A stretch of 64,000 nt of DNA from an uncultured Actinomycetes bacterium. Its GTDB lineage: Bacteria > Actinomycetota > Actinomycetes > Nanopelagicales > Nanopelagicaceae. Under the pieces are notes generated by a model that did not search any database, had not been told where the DNA came from, and saw only the letters and a program-made list of their open reading frames with translations. Both the position numbers and the translations under genes were made by a program. The stretch is from the NCBI GenBank assembly GCA_903834515.1, contig CAILJM010000027.1, positions 62,001-126,000 of the forward strand. Direction: 5' to 3'. Below, piece by piece: positions 1 to 6,146 of the stretch. How positions within the stretch are numbered: the first letter of the stretch is position 1; every line of letters starts with the position of its first letter.

Positions 1-456
1 CCCCGATGGCGTCGGCCAACTAATTCCAAAATGTAGATGCGGTGTCGTTCCCCGAGCATCACCACTATTTCCGGTCTTGGCAAGGAGATCGCCAGCGACC
101 ACGCGCACCCCCGACAAGATATTGAGTGGGATAGAAGAGAGGTGAGAGCCGTAATAACGGACCCCGTCATCACCAATCATCGAGACTGAAAGTCCCCCAC
201 GATCTGCACCTTTGTTCGTTCTCCAACTGAAGCGATCAACGCGATTAACCTCATCAATCACGCCATTTGTCGGCGCCACGAAATCGCACCCTATGTGAGT
301 GAGGATATCGGTAGCGGGATAATTGTGATGCGATCGAGCGTAAGAATAAGAGCATCCCGAAATCGGAAAGACATAGGTGGGAGCTGAGTGCGCTACTGGA
401 ATTACGGCAACAGAGATTAAAACGGCTACAAAAGAAATCGATCGCTTCACTTCCAC
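1..456 (-). CDS. Secreted M23-family (LytM) metallopeptidase, 3' part outside window
   Basis: The reading frame runs off the left edge, so the C-terminus is missing. The start is taken as GTG at 456, 9 bases after the stop of the permease gene; a second GTG lies at 450. The N-terminus is a signal peptide (VKRS, then a hydrophobic stretch ending in AHSA). The remainder matches the M23/LytM zinc-peptidase fold: a histidine-aspartate pair in HHNYPATD, a conserved glycine-rich core and the HLHFG motif near the visible end. Family members cut peptidoglycan peptide bridges, or act as catalytically dead activators; here both metal-binding motifs are present. It is probably cotranscribed with the permease and the hydrolase-ABC fusion upstream. 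Codon-by-codon reading supports it, but the full domain cannot be judged. Confidence 0.8.
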   Translation of the reverse strand, partial: MEVKRSISFVAVLISVAVIPVAHSAPTYVFPISGCSYSYARSHHNYPATDILTHIGCDFVAPTNGVIDEVNRVDRFSWRTNKGADRGGLSVSMIGDDGVRYYGSHLSSIPLNILSGVRVVAGDLLAKTGNSGDARGTTPHLHFGISWPTPSG

Positions 457-465
457 AGCGTACAG

Positions 466-1311
466 CTACGAAGTTACATCCTTCTTAGCAAAACGAAGAA
501 AGGCGATGGAAGTCAAAATTGCAGAAAGAATAAGTGCATAAGATGCACCGCGAACCATTTGGTTCCAGTCGATTTGGCTGGATAAGGCATCGAACCACGA
601 GAAAGAGAAGTGGCTCGGTAGCCAATTTCGCAATGCCCCAAGGCCAGTGATCGCATCCAAAATATTTGAAAGGATCATTATTCCTATCGCTCCCCCGACT
701 GCGCCGAGCGGAACATCCGTAGTCACGCTGAAATAAAAGGCGATCGCCGCAACGACAAGTAAGGTAATCGCAAGATAGGCAGCGACAATTGCTAAACGCC
801 CGATTGCCACAGAATTAACCATCGTTACGCCCAATGGGGTCTGAAGTGGCGCTGTGCCGAATGCCAGAGCTCCGACAGAGAATGAGGTCAGAGCAAGCAA
901 AATTATGCCAACCGCGGACAGAGTCAGACTGACCTTAAGTTTTTGAAGTAGGAGCCTCGCCCTGGGAACCGGAGCGGCGAGGAGATACCTCAGCGTTGAC
1001 CACGATGCTTCCGATGCAACGGTATCGCCATTAAAAAGAGCAACGACTGCAATAAGTAGAAAGGGCGTCGCAAAGTAGAACATCGTTGCAGTGAAGTTAG
1101 CCGCGCCTTTCGTTGCGAGGCCAATCAAGTCAGCAGTTCCGGCTCCAAAACGAGTTGGCCCAGTGCTGTTGCCAGTAGTACCGAATTTAACAGCAAGTGA
1201 AACAATGACCGGCAGGGCCATGACGAATAGATAGGCAAAGAGGGTCCGCTTTCGCTTCAGTTGCCGATACATCTCAACTCGATACGGCAGCGTTGTTCGT
1301 GGTGAATACAT
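466..1311 (-). CDS. ABC-2 type transporter permease
   Basis: An integral membrane protein of about 281 residues with six or so hydrophobic segments, including LFAYLFVMALPVIV near the N-terminus, AIGRLAIVAAYLAITLLVV in the middle and a last helix just before the KKDVTS tail. This layout is typical of ABC-2 exporter permeases. The start is set at ATG 1311 because GGAAAGGAG lies 7 bases before it, at the very end of the preceding ATPase gene. An ATG at 1341 would add 10 residues and overlap that gene by 29 bases. The stop of the ATPase gene (TGA at 1313-1315) nearly touches this start, so the two are translationally coupled and presumably form one transporter. The substrate is unknown. Confidence 0.85.
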   Translation of the reverse strand: MYSPRTTLPYRVEMYRQLKRKRTLFAYLFVMALPVIVSLAVKFGTTGNSTGPTRFGAGTADLIGLATKGAANFTATMFYFATPFLLIAVVALFNGDTVASEASWSTLRYLLAAPVPRARLLLQKLKVSLTLSAVGIILLALTSFSVGALAFGTAPLQTPLGVTMVNSVAIGRLAIVAAYLAITLLVVAAIAFYFSVTTDVPLGAVGGAIGIMILSNILDAITGLGALRNWLPSHFSFSWFDALSSQIDWNQMVRGASYALILSAILTSIAFLRFAKKDVTS

Positions 1312-1312
1312 A

Positions 1313-3772
1313 TCAGGACTCCTTTCCGATAGTGAGGTCATCCCCGATAAGTTCGATAAAGATCTCTTCCAGCGAGCCTGACTTCTTTCCCGTCTTGCGC
1401 AGAATCTTCTTCATCGTCCCGAATGCGATGAGTTTTCCTCGGTGCATGAGAACAACATGCGTACAGGTTTGCTCCACCTCGGAGAGAAGGTGTGAAGAGA
1501 CGATTACCGTTCGACCCGTTTTCGCATAGTTCTTAAGAACTTCACGCATCGCCTTGATTTGCTGTGGATCAAGACCGTTCGTTGGCTCATCGAGAACCAG
1601 CAAATCTGGCATACCCAACATGGCTTGTGCGATGGCAAGGCGCTGTCGCATGCCTTGCGAATACGAACGGACCTTCTTATCTAGCGCATTTCCAAGGTCA
1701 GTAATTTTCACTGCCTCATCAAAGAACGGTTCATCGTCACGCCCAATGGATTTCCAGTAAAGCTCGAGATTTTCTCTTCCTGAAAGGTGTGGCAAGAAAC
1801 CGGAGCCCTCAACAAATGAACCGAGTTCAGCGAGAGTTGGCGAGCCAGGATAAATTGGTTTGCCATCGATACTAATTTCACCTTCGGTCGGATAAATAAG
1901 TCCCATCATCATCCGAAGGGTCGTTGTCTTCCCCGCACCATTGGGGCCGAGCAAACCAAGAACTTGACCACGCTTCACGTGGAAAGAGAGGCCATCGACA
2001 GCCTTATACCCATCCTTATAAACCTTGGAGAGGTGAGAGACGCTAACGAGCGCATCACTCTCCTCGAGGGGTGCGCGATTATGTCGCGGCCTACGTAAGT
2101 ATGCGAAGAAAACGGAGGCGATGACAATCAGAATTGCCGCAATGGGCCAGAGCAAGAGTGAGCTGTTGCTCTTTGAAGAAGTAAACGCCAGGTTGGAGTA
2201 ATGCAATGGTCCCGCTACTGCAACGGTATACAGGCGCCCATCTTGGGGCATCGAATAACCCTGGTCGGTTGTCGAAATTGCGACGGCGAGTTTGTCCCCG
2301 ACAGCCGCATCGAGCACCACTGCAGGTAGCGCTATCTCAAAGAGTGATCCGGCAGGTGCGAGATGAGTCAAATGCACTGGGGCAACGATTCCGTTGGGTT
2401 GCTTGGTCTGTCCCGAAGCGGTGCGAACCACGAGCGAGAAGAAGAGAGTCGCATCTGATTTATTTGAAGAGACTTTAACTTTAATTTTTGAAGGCCCCAC
2501 AATACTCAGCGGATGCTTTAAGGCCGATGTCTCGAGAAAGCCACTTTGTCCTGGTAGAAATGCTGCCGAGACTCCCCCTAGGTTGCCCGCCAATGCGAGA
2601 GCAGATCCAACTCCTGGTAGCGATGAAATAGCACCGGGGATTCCGCCGATTGGCGCAATAAGCGCAGTGAAAGGCGTGACAATCGGCATCTCTGAATAGG
2701 GGATAGTCGTAGGGAGTGAAGAACTTTGCATCAGTTTAGGGATTACCGATGAGTCAATTAACGAGATAGAGCCATTTGTATCGGTGACTTGGAAGGGCGG
2801 GAAAGTGATACTTTTTTTGAGAAGATATTTATCGAACCAATCGCTCGTTGCTTTCTGCAATCTCTTTGATTCGTCAGTTCCGCCATCGTGCCCGCCGCTA
2901 TGCCAGATCATTGCAAGCGGGACGTCAGGATGCGAAGAATGGATAGCACGTGCATTTGCAAGCGAATCATTCAATGGAAAGAGTGAATCTGCTTCGCCCT
3001 GCATTAAGAGCGTCGGCGCTACGATCTCTGATGCGACAGAGGCAGGTGATGAAGCCTGCATTAACTTCATATCGGTTGCAGTAGGTGATCCGCCGGCAAC
3101 GGCATCTTTGAATGCGGCACACCACGCGGCGGAGAAAGTTCCACACTCTCCCCCAAAAGCATTAGGAAGAGATGCTAAGGCGAAGAAAGTTCCCGCCCAA
3201 AATTTCTTGTATGGACCATAACTTGGGTCATTCGCATTTTGAGGAAAGAGGGCGTCACTGAGCGAGTTCCACGTGATATTCGCAGAGACTGCATCGATTC
3301 GGTGATCGTATCCCGCGGTTAAAAGTGAGACGGCACCTCCATAAGAATCCCCCGCAATACCAACAACGGGATCTCCCTTAGCCTGCTGGATTACTTCACT
3401 TCGCGTCGAGAGAAAATCAATGAGTTTCGATACATCTGCAACTTCACCATCTGGTGAGTCCATTGAAATTTCACCTGTCGATTTACCAAATCCGCGGGCA
3501 GTCCACGCGAGAACTACATATCCATGGAGCGCCAAGGCTTTAGCCTGGGCAGCGACAGATGACTTATCTCCCGCAAATCCATGAGCCAATAGGATCGCTG
3601 GTGCTGGAAGTCGGGCTGGCAAGTAGAGAGTTGTATCGAGGGAGACTCCCCCCGCGCCATCGATGCGCTGATCCACTGATATCGCCTTGGAAGAAGCGTG
3701 GGCACTTGCTCCTGTGAAAATTGAGAGCCCGCCGAGAATCAGGGCAGTGAGTGAAGCTAAAAACTTCTTCAT
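1313..3772 (-). CDS. Fusion of secreted S15/CocE-like alpha/beta hydrolase, membrane helix and ABC transporter ATPase
   Basis: An 819-residue protein with unusual architecture. Residues 1-27 form a signal peptide. Residues about 40-320 are an alpha/beta hydrolase resembling X-Pro dipeptidyl-peptidase/CocE enzymes, with nucleophile elbow GDSYGG (Ser143), likely acid Asp262 and His295. Residues about 325-525 are a beta-rich region like the C-terminal domain of that family. A single membrane helix covers 537-559 and is followed by a basic RRPRHNR stop-transfer. Residues 573-810 are a complete ABC ATPase: Walker A GPNGAGKTT (609-617), signature YSQGM (704-708), Walker B LLVLDEP (724-730), H-loop His761. 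The topology therefore puts the hydrolase outside and the ATPase in the cytoplasm. The downstream permease is coupled to it. The frame is continuous, with no sign of a frameshift artefact. Its substrate is unknown. Confidence 0.9.
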   Translation of the reverse strand: MKKFLASLTALILGGLSIFTGASAHASSKAISVDQRIDGAGGVSLDTTLYLPARLPAPAILLAHGFAGDKSSVAAQAKALALHGYVVLAWTARGFGKSTGEISMDSPDGEVADVSKLIDFLSTRSEVIQQAKGDPVVGIAGDSYGGAVSLLTAGYDHRIDAVSANITWNSLSDALFPQNANDPSYGPYKKFWAGTFFALASLPNAFGGECGTFSAAWCAAFKDAVAGGSPTATDMKLMQASSPASVASEIVAPTLLMQGEADSLFPLNDSLANARAIHSSHPDVPLAMIWHSGGHDGGTDESKRLQKATSDWFDKYLLKKSITFPPFQVTDTNGSISLIDSSVIPKLMQSSSLPTTIPYSEMPIVTPFTALIAPIGGIPGAISSLPGVGSALALAGNLGGVSAAFLPGQSGFLETSALKHPLSIVGPSKIKVKVSSNKSDATLFFSLVVRTASGQTKQPNGIVAPVHLTHLAPAGSLFEIALPAVVLDAAVGDKLAVAISTTDQGYSMPQDGRLYTVAVAGPLHYSNLAFTSSKSNSSLLLWPIAAILIVIASVFFAYLRRPRHNRAPLEESDALVSVSHLSKVYKDGYKAVDGLSFHVKRGQVLGLLGPNGAGKTTTLRMMMGLIYPTEGEISIDGKPIYPGSPTLAELGSFVEGSGFLPHLSGRENLELYWKSIGRDDEPFFDEAVKITDLGNALDKKVRSYSQGMRQRLAIAQAMLGMPDLLVLDEPTNGLDPQQIKAMREVLKNYAKTGRTVIVSSHLLSEVEQTCTHVVLMHRGKLIAFGTMKKILRKTGKKSGSLEEIFIELIGDDLTIGKES

Positions 3773-3833: not shown

Positions 3834-4955
3834 ATGAGGTCCACTCGCATATTTCCCATCTTGGCCGTTACTACAGGTGCGCTTTTCGCGGCCCTAGGGT
3901 TAACAACATCTGCCACTCATGCCGCAACACCGCCTACTCACCTCTATACGGCGACGATGAGCAGACCTTATAGTCCCGTTCCTACAAATGGTGGAACCGA
4001 TGACTACCACTGTTTCGTCATTGACCCTCATGTGACATCGGATTCGATCATTACTTCAGTAACTTTTAAACCGCAACAGAAATTGATCGTTCATCACATG
4101 ATCCTCTTTCAGGTCGCGCAAAAGGATCGCGCATCGGCTATTGCACTCAATAAAAATGGTGCAGGTTGGTCCTGCTTCGGCGGTGCTGGAAACGGATCGA
4201 GCTTCTCTTCCTTCTTGACTACACCATGGCTCTCTTCATGGGCGCCCGGCCGGAATACCGACACAATGCCAAGTGGATATGGCTCACCCATTTCACAAGG
4301 TGATCTCTTAGTAATCCAGATTCACTACAACTTGCTCGCCATTAATTTCGGTGGCACACCTAAAGATCAATCGAGCGTTCAGATAACTGCTCTTCCTGCA
4401 GCAGGTTCGACCTTGAAACCGCTCTATGCAGATCTATTCCCTGCCCCGGTAGAACTTGCCTGTCCAACTGGAGTGACCGGGCCTCTCTGCGACCGCGGCA
4501 AATCTCTCATCGACCTCGCCCGCCGAACCAGTAGCGAAAGTGCGGTTGAATCGGCCGGACTTAACTTGATCTGCGGAGAGAGCGCCTTCGCTCCAACGCC
4601 CTCTAACACGTCAACATGTGACCGCACAATCACACAAAATGAAGTTGTTATTAAGGCAACTCCACATATGCATTTACTTGGTCGTTCCATGCGCGTGATC
4701 CTCAACCCTGGAACCGCTGGCGAACGGGTCTTACTTGACCGCCCTCGCTATAACTTCGATGACCAATCCCCAACAGTCCTGCGCAAGCCGATAGCTCTTA
4801 AAATTGGTGACACGATCCGCGTTCAATGCGTTTTCGATCCAACCCTTCGTCAGACGATCCCACAACTCAAGAAATTACCCGCTCGATATGTGACCTGGGG
4901 CGAGGGCTCATCCGATGAGATGTGCCTAGGTGTTCTTGGCGTGGCGCGAAACTAG
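3834..4955 (+). CDS. Secreted copper type II monooxygenase, PHM/DBH-like
   Basis: A 373-residue protein with an N-terminal signal peptide (cleavage near residue 30, TSATHA). It keeps the whole copper-ligand set of peptidylglycine/dopamine beta-monooxygenases: His87-His88 (VHHM), His164 (IQIHYN) for the first copper, His278 and His280 (PHMH) plus Met363 (DEMC) for the second. The TDDYHCF segment near residue 55 is also typical of the family. Such enzymes hydroxylate carbon using two separated coppers, oxygen and a reductant such as ascorbate. The bacterial substrate is unknown. It is divergent from the hydrolase-ABC gene across a 61-base gap and is followed by tRNA-Met, so it is probably a single-gene unit. 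Confidence 0.85.
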   Translation: MRSTRIFPILAVTTGALFAALGLTTSATHAATPPTHLYTATMSRPYSPVPTNGGTDDYHCFVIDPHVTSDSIITSVTFKPQQKLIVHHMILFQVAQKDRASAIALNKNGAGWSCFGGAGNGSSFSSFLTTPWLSSWAPGRNTDTMPSGYGSPISQGDLLVIQIHYNLLAINFGGTPKDQSSVQITALPAAGSTLKPLYADLFPAPVELACPTGVTGPLCDRGKSLIDLARRTSSESAVESAGLNLICGESAFAPTPSNTSTCDRTITQNEVVIKATPHMHLLGRSMRVILNPGTAGERVLLDRPRYNFDDQSPTVLRKPIALKIGDTIRVQCVFDPTLRQTIPQLKKLPARYVTWGEGSSDEMCLGVLGVARN

Positions 4956-5087: not shown

Positions 5088-6146
5088 CTAGAGCTCCGGG
5101 AGAATAATTGTGATTCCACTCTTTCCATTTTTAGCGATGCTCGCACCCTCATCCATCTCCTGAAGGAGTCTCGCCCCTTCCGCGAGTGAGACTTCTCGCT
5201 CAACAAGTTCTTGAGGTCTTAATTTTCCAGCAGCGACCATGGCGAGCATTTCTGGATAGTCAACGGCTGCCATGCCATGGCTGCCAAATAGATCGATCTC
5301 CCAACCAATTACTCGAGCCATCGGCATGAGGGTGTCACCGCTTGGGGTTAGTAAAAGTCCCAGTTGAAGATGGCGGCCCTGACGACGAAGTGAGAGAACC
5401 GAATCCTTTGATGTCATCGGTGATCCAAGCGCGTCGATGCTGACATGAGCTCCAAGATCGGTGAGTGCATGAATCTTATTGACCGGATTCTCAAGCGAAC
5501 TATTAATAAGGAAATCGGCGCCAGATTCGGAAGCCTTCTGAAGAGCTTCTGGGTTGATATCTACGGCGATGACCTTGGCACCCAATGCCTTCGCGATCAT
5601 GATTGCCGATAAACCAACTCCGCCACAGCCGTAAATCGCAACCCATTCCCCTTCTACAACGCGGGCCCGATCCACAATGCCACGAAATGCGGTTGCGAAT
5701 CGACAGCCAAGCGCGGCGGCGGTAGCGAAATCGACATCATCTGGAAGTCGAATGAGATTGAAATCCGCATTTTCGATTGAGACAAGCTCAGCGAATGAAC
5801 CCCACTGCGTAAATCCCGGTTGAGTCTGAGTCGGACAGACTTGTGCATTACCTGATAAACAGAATGAACAATTGCCACAACCATTAACGAAAGGTACGGT
5901 GACGCGATCACCAACCTGGAATCTCTCGACACCGCTTCCTATCTCGGTGACTACGCCGGCAAATTCATGCCCTGGCACGTGTGGCAACTTTATATCCGTA
6001 TCGTGTCCCACCCAGCCGTGCCAATCACTTCGACAAAGTCCTGTGGCCATCACCTTAATGAGAACTCCACTCTGTGGGGCAACAGGTTGAGGCAAATCCC
6101 ATACAGAAAGTTCACCATTGAAATCCGAAAAGTAAATAGCACGCAT
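5088..6146 (-). CDS. Zinc-dependent alcohol dehydrogenase (MDR superfamily)
   Basis: A 352-residue medium-chain dehydrogenase. Catalytic zinc ligands are Cys38, His60 with Glu61 (GHEFAG) and Cys148; the structural zinc lobe is Cys90, 93, 96 and 104. The NAD-binding Rossmann motif is GCGGVG at 173-178. An Asp in VIAVDIN after the second strand suggests NAD rather than NADP. It would oxidise an alcohol or reduce an aldehyde in the cytoplasm; the substrate cannot be read from the sequence. The start at ATG 6146 has no clear Shine-Dalgarno sequence, so the message may be nearly leaderless. It stands alone between tRNA-Met and a formamidase-like hydrolase in the same direction. Confidence 0.9.
   Translation of the reverse strand: MRAIYFSDFNGELSVWDLPQPVAPQSGVLIKVMATGLCRSDWHGWVGHDTDIKLPHVPGHEFAGVVTEIGSGVERFQVGDRVTVPFVNGCGNCSFCLSGNAQVCPTQTQPGFTQWGSFAELVSIENADFNLIRLPDDVDFATAAALGCRFATAFRGIVDRARVVEGEWVAIYGCGGVGLSAIMIAKALGAKVIAVDINPEALQKASESGADFLINSSLENPVNKIHALTDLGAHVSIDALGSPMTSKDSVLSLRRQGRHLQLGLLLTPSGDTLMPMARVIGWEIDLFGSHGMAAVDYPEMLAMVAAGKLRPQELVEREVSLAEGARLLQEMDEGASIAKNGKSGITIILPEL

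Follow-up and report, generated by a model that had tools for sequence, protein, structure and literature searches.

A 64,000-nucleotide stretch from an uncultured actinobacterium of the family Nanopelagicaceae, hereafter the window, carries near its start a gene whose product appears to place a secreted hydrolase and the ATPase of a membrane transporter in one polypeptide. This raises the question of whether the two halves truly belong to one protein, on which side of the membrane each of them lies, and what a transport motor tied to an outer enzyme would do.

Architecture and predicted topology of the fused protein

The reading frame of 819 residues (3772-1313, minus strand) was recovered in an ORF check with exactly the length and position given by the sequence-only reading that first drew attention to it. 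The chain comprises the following features, all on the minus strand.

1313..3772, minus strand: fused protein, 819 residues, made up of a signal peptide, an S15/CocE-type hydrolase, PepX_C, a transmembrane helix and an ABC ATPase
3695..3772, minus strand: N-terminal signal segment, residues 1-26, with a cleavage-like site AHA-SS and a hydropathy peak at 4-22
2783..3685, minus strand: alpha/beta hydrolase domain (S15/CocE-type), residues 30-330, with PF02129 at 42-295; the fold matches PaL (8yzn) and CocE
3344..3346, minus strand: nucleophile Ser143 in GDSYGG, Ser in 48/48
3119..3145, minus strand: Cys210...Cys218 pair, a probable disulphide from covariation in 48 proteins
2987..2989, minus strand: triad residue Asp262, Asp in 48/48
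2888..2890, minus strand: triad residue His295, His in 48/48
2174..2782, minus strand: PepX_C jelly-roll domain with loop, residues 331-533 (PF08530), strand-rich
2546..2653, minus strand: motif loop PIGGIPGAISSLPGVG...LPGQ, residues 374-409, characteristic of fused proteins
2096..2164, minus strand: single transmembrane helix 537-559, then RRPRHNR, from hydropathy, model and homologues
1388..2050, minus strand: ABC ATPase domain, residues 575-795, with Walker A (GPNGAGKT), signature (YSQGM) and Walker B (LLVLDE); PF00005, motifs intact

We found that Pfam assigns Peptidase_S15 (PF02129) to residues 42-295 (5e-16; 59.5 bits against a cut-off of 23), PepX_C (PF08530) to residues 414-512 (6e-6; 26.7 bits against a cut-off of 22.5) and ABC_tran (PF00005) to residues 593-732 (2e-30). 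Both hydrolase-side domains score higher in the homologues from L098 and Tsukamurella than in the window protein. Together with these two domains, the Ser-Asp-His triad in its GxSYxG context places the N-terminal half in the S15/CocE group, and the residues earlier proposed as catalytic, Ser143, Asp262 and His295, do occupy the triad positions and are invariant across the 48 aligned fused homologues. In the other half, the 48 aligned fused proteins retain unbroken Walker A, signature and Walker B motifs, as in a complete ATPase of an ABC-2 exporter, and among the solved structures nearest to this half in sequence are lipid-transporting ABCA proteins, NosF and Rv1218c.

Regarding topology, the N-terminus is hydrophobic in nearly all fused homologues, with the sequence of the signal segment itself being variable (alignment, n=48). 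The only clear transmembrane segment of the fused protein lies at residues 539-557 (hydropathy 2.69), directly followed by YLRRPRHNR, and a hydrophobic helix followed by Arg/Lys is common to the aligned fused homologues. The helix spans 536-559 in the AlphaFold model, although such models, built with 14 close relatives, are poor (mean pLDDT 52). Because of the arginines after this segment, the positive-inside rule places the hydrolase on the outer side of the membrane and the ATPase on the inner side. C210 and C218 are the only cysteines in the ectodomain of the window protein. Both are present in 46/48 fused proteins and jointly missing in 2/48, the two losses being in close relatives and possibly a single event; since the two residues are kept or lost together, as for a disulphide, they favour an oxidising outside location. 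The signal segment, the positive-inside arginines and the covarying cysteine pair thus support the predicted placement of the hydrolase domain on the outer face and speak against a cytoplasmic hydrolase, the outcome that had been set against the initial proposal. That proposal, one chain linking an outside enzyme through one helix to an inside ABC ATPase, agrees with both Pfam and hydropathy.

In a structural search (Foldseek, VIA-align 2), the ectodomain model is nearest to the lipase PaL (8yzn; Z 16.6, rmsd 5.2, 404 residues), followed by cocaine esterase (Z ~15) and alpha-amino-acid ester hydrolase (Z ~13), a fold match to be read mainly as Pfam plus a low-confidence model. PepX, which represents the X-Pro dipeptidyl peptidases of true MEROPS S15, is a more distant fold (6nff, Z 12.4) than the ester hydrolases, the PepX_C region is strand-rich with pLDDT mostly 63-85 from about residue 406 onward, and 8yzn is also among the top sequence matches of the ectodomain (phmmer). 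Because the nearest folds are PaL and cocaine esterase and phmmer also ranks 8yzn high, the modelled domain is more probably an esterase or acyl hydrolase than a dipeptidase, and it is unlikely to be a peptidoglycan hydrolase. Additionally, free-standing secreted S15/CocE-like hydrolases at L140, L167 and L169 have C-terminal membrane segments, in L140 with an LPATG sortase-like tail.

Distribution and history of the fusion

Trivially, two genes could have been joined by an error of assembly or sequencing, and separate genes in close relatives, with a join error here, had been named as the finding that would undo the proposal. We instead recovered 60 fused loci, some of them the same genome reached by two routes, and the identical join recurs in these homologous loci from many assemblies and finished records; the chance of an artefact is accordingly negligible. 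Some loci lie in single-contig genomes (G016, G040), and a genome scan found 13 complete fused copies in MAG records. In the finished record of Nonomuraea gerenzanensis the fused protein has 966 residues and the permease gene overlaps by four bases, and in that of Tsukamurella tyrosinosolvens (WP_232066410.1) an ABC permease adjoins. The RefSeq label of the Tsukamurella protein (L124:8998-11373) is 'alpha/beta fold hydrolase' only, an example of how public annotation conceals the ABC half and with it the fusion. L082, considered as an unfused case, was discarded, being cut at a contig end with the hydrolase half on another contig of the same genome.

Upon partitioning by taxon, we observe the fusion in 17/101 genomes of the window's family, its own genome included, and in 25/201 genomes of its order, with a patchy frequency within the family of about one genome per six to eight. 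A phylum-wide sample of 396 genomes added 23 further genomes, ten of them within one genus of 6-10 Mb genomes. In samples of two other phyla, those to which L055 (195 genomes) and L054 (200 genomes) belong, nothing scored above threshold, and judged from these two samples a restriction of the fusion to Actinomycetota is likely. The fusion is kept in actinobacteria ranging from small-genome plankton to large-genome antibiotic producers, and we find no description of it in open-access full text (PMC; subscription papers lie outside this scope).

In a tree with 25 free-standing homologues, the fused hydrolases fall into a single clade (support 98/97; 200/200 bootstrap trees). Because this clade is supported and stands apart from its free-standing relatives, the fusion is probably ancient in Actinomycetota, and the simplest history, judged from the trees, would be one early fusion followed by patchy loss. 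The fused ATPases likewise group together; at the border of their cluster stand a few free ATPase-permease pairs (L083-L085), which lack a hydrolase gene in their vicinity. A split-gene ancestor, in which a hydrolase gene would stand beside a free ATPase, was sought in L109-L111 and none was found. At these three loci, ATPase-permease pairs share about 50% identity with the fused ATPase and have no hydrolase nearby, an exporter core lacking the enzyme, and such relatives suggest that the hydrolase is not required for this transporter type per se. Furthermore, nonsynonymous divergence against close relatives is 0.15-0.31 in the hydrolase and 0.05-0.13 in the ATPase, with synonymous sites saturated or nearly so, and purifying selection is evident, from these substitution patterns, on both halves of the protein.

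Residues 374-409 read PxGGxPxAxSxxPGxG...PGQ, with P374, P379, P386, G408 and Q409 invariant in 48/48 fused proteins. The pattern matches 57/60 fused proteins (the three misses are variants) versus 0/25 free-standing hydrolases; it was written after inspection of the fused set, whose members share ancestry, and we therefore take the loop as a clade signature only. A role of the loop in docking the enzyme onto the permease is conjectural.

Permease, neighbouring genes and a proposed role of the complex

The genes flanking the fused gene in the window are the following.

466..1311, minus strand: ABC-2 permease with six hydrophobic segments (hydropathy), PF12679/PF12730 (ABC2_membrane)
1..456, minus strand: M23 peptidase gene, running past the edge of the window, PF01551 (Peptidase_M23)
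3834..4955, plus strand: divergent gene with weak similarity to copper type II monooxygenases, a conserved neighbour in related genomes only

The permease probably starts with the ATG at 1311, one base past the TGA of the fused gene, where homology begins in most relatives; this start is better than 1341, the first ATG of the ORF list. A permease lies directly downstream on the same strand in 56/56 fused loci with downstream sequence, mostly with a 4-base overlap or a gap of 0-3 bases. The coupled permease that the sequence-only reading described is thus conserved in its position, and the gene comparison supports an ABC-2 permease as the constant partner of the fused protein.

The remaining neighbours are less constant. 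The M23 gene, complete in the full contig (200 residues), follows the permease with tight spacing in the window, as had been noted, and its conservation as a neighbour did not hold up, given that among loci with flanks we see it besides only in L038 and L040/L113. We rejected it as a part of the system, since as a neighbour it is confined to three related genomes. This bears on the suggestion that hydrolase and M23 peptidase together cut peptidoglycan, driven by the ATPase: the tight spacing in the window speaks for such wall-peptide trimming, but M23 is absent from all other flanked loci except those named, and the hydrolase is a member of the CocE/S15 group of esterases and aminopeptidases, its fold being nearest to PaL and cocaine esterase, not to a peptidoglycan enzyme. 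We consequently drop this part of the earlier proposal as very improbable. The product of the divergent gene at 3834-4955 is secreted and shows weak similarity to copper type II ascorbate-dependent monooxygenases in both of their domains; many related genomes keep this gene next to the fused one, and it was not seen outside the family. A zinc alcohol dehydrogenase occurs a few kb upstream in the window (5088-6146, minus strand) and at L094:4990-6051 and L097:15199-16236, the proteins being 54-56% identical. L094 and L097 are large-genome relatives, and the linkage is probably coincidence, since the gene is not kept in the nearest relatives. Because the genes beyond the permease differ between lineages, they provide no biosynthetic context indicating the cargo. 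A role in defence was also set aside, the PADLOC matches being generic ATPase hits only.

We give an even chance to the likeliest reading, that the fused protein and its permease form an ABC-2 exporter with a tethered outer-face esterase or acyl hydrolase acting on the cargo at its exit. The complex would contain two permeases and two ATPase chains, a dimeric stoichiometry that we infer, and each ATPase chain would cross the membrane once and present a CocE/S15-fold esterase or acyl hydrolase outside. The export core would move outward a hydrophobic compound, with the direction suggested by the family and the substrate presumably acylated, esterified or peptidyl, and the tethered hydrolase would act at the exit by deacylation or ester cleavage, releasing or maturing the cargo, enzyme and transporter presumably working on the same molecule; this agrees with the processing or release of exported material that the sequence-only reading had put forward as a possibility. 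What can be read from the sequences themselves is the one-chain architecture, the invariant catalytic residues, selection on both halves, the constant permease and the single clade. Weighing against this reading are the shifting gene neighbourhood beyond the permease, the poor fold model and the hydrolase-free pairs at L109-L111. The fused protein is open to tests in culturable strains, and the identity of the cargo would reveal an unrecognised exported compound that is enzymatically finished.

A further step, in which the protein would be a covalent allosteric exporter-enzyme whose ATPase cycle gates the outer hydrolase via the one helix, with loop 374-409 docking it at the permease exit and cargo cut only during export, we consider unlikely. 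More improbable still is mechanotransmission as in FtsEX or MacB, where the ABC module would not mainly be a pump and ATP cycling would move the single helix to switch the outer hydrolase. The single-helix connection and a conserved outer loop typical of fused, not free, hydrolases would suit such a device, but only ABC2_membrane models match the permease, whose hydrophobic segments number six in place of the four helices of MacB/FtsX, and a single short helix that leads into a charged, flexible linker makes a weak lever.

Self-protection offers another account, in which the exporter would pump out a toxic, hydrophobic ester, antibiotic or xenobiotic that the esterase on the outer face would destroy, blocking its re-entry, the tether merely holding the enzyme at the exit. 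The CocE/lipase-like fold and the patchy presence in the family fit this account, as do the scores, all below the cut-off, that the ATPase obtains with ABC models of the DrrA (drug) and lantibiotic-protection types. Against it stand the deep, vertical-looking conservation across Actinomycetota and the annotated or compared loci, in which no resistance genes adjoin, and we regard it as possible but doubtful.

Comparison with known systems

The CocE/NonD-S15 hydrolases (PaL 8yzn, cocaine esterase 1ju3, alpha-amino acid ester hydrolases 1mpx/2b9v, PepX 1lns) likewise combine an alpha/beta hydrolase with a C-terminal PepX_C jelly roll, and share with the fused protein the G-x-S-Y-x-G nucleophile and the Ser-Asp-His triad, whereas a distinct loop motif marks the fused clade, which branches apart from free-standing actinobacterial relatives in the tree. 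We know of no CocE/NonD-S15 hydrolase with a transmembrane helix and an ABC ATPase. PCAT transporters (C39) resemble the fused protein in joining a hydrolase to an exporter and in linking cargo processing with export; the PCAT C39 domain is, however, a cysteine protease on the cytoplasmic side that acts before export, whereas the fused protein would carry a serine hydrolase outside, and Pfam finds no C39 domain or fused TMD in it, the hydrolase being an alpha/beta serine hydrolase. FtsEX with its wall hydrolase partners and NosDFY with NosD likewise pair an ABC machine with an extracytoplasmic protein, but these partners are separate polypeptides, and FtsEX has another permease type. Finally, the ABC-2 exporters DrrAB, NosFY and Rv1217c-Rv1218c likewise encode an ATPase of this family and a six-helix permease side by side; their ATPase is a soluble subunit, whereas the fused chain carries, on the N-terminal side of its ATPase, a membrane anchor and an enzyme on the outer face. 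ABC ATPases of the ABC-2 exporter type are normally entirely cytoplasmic, and the fused clade would tie this motor to a surface esterase.
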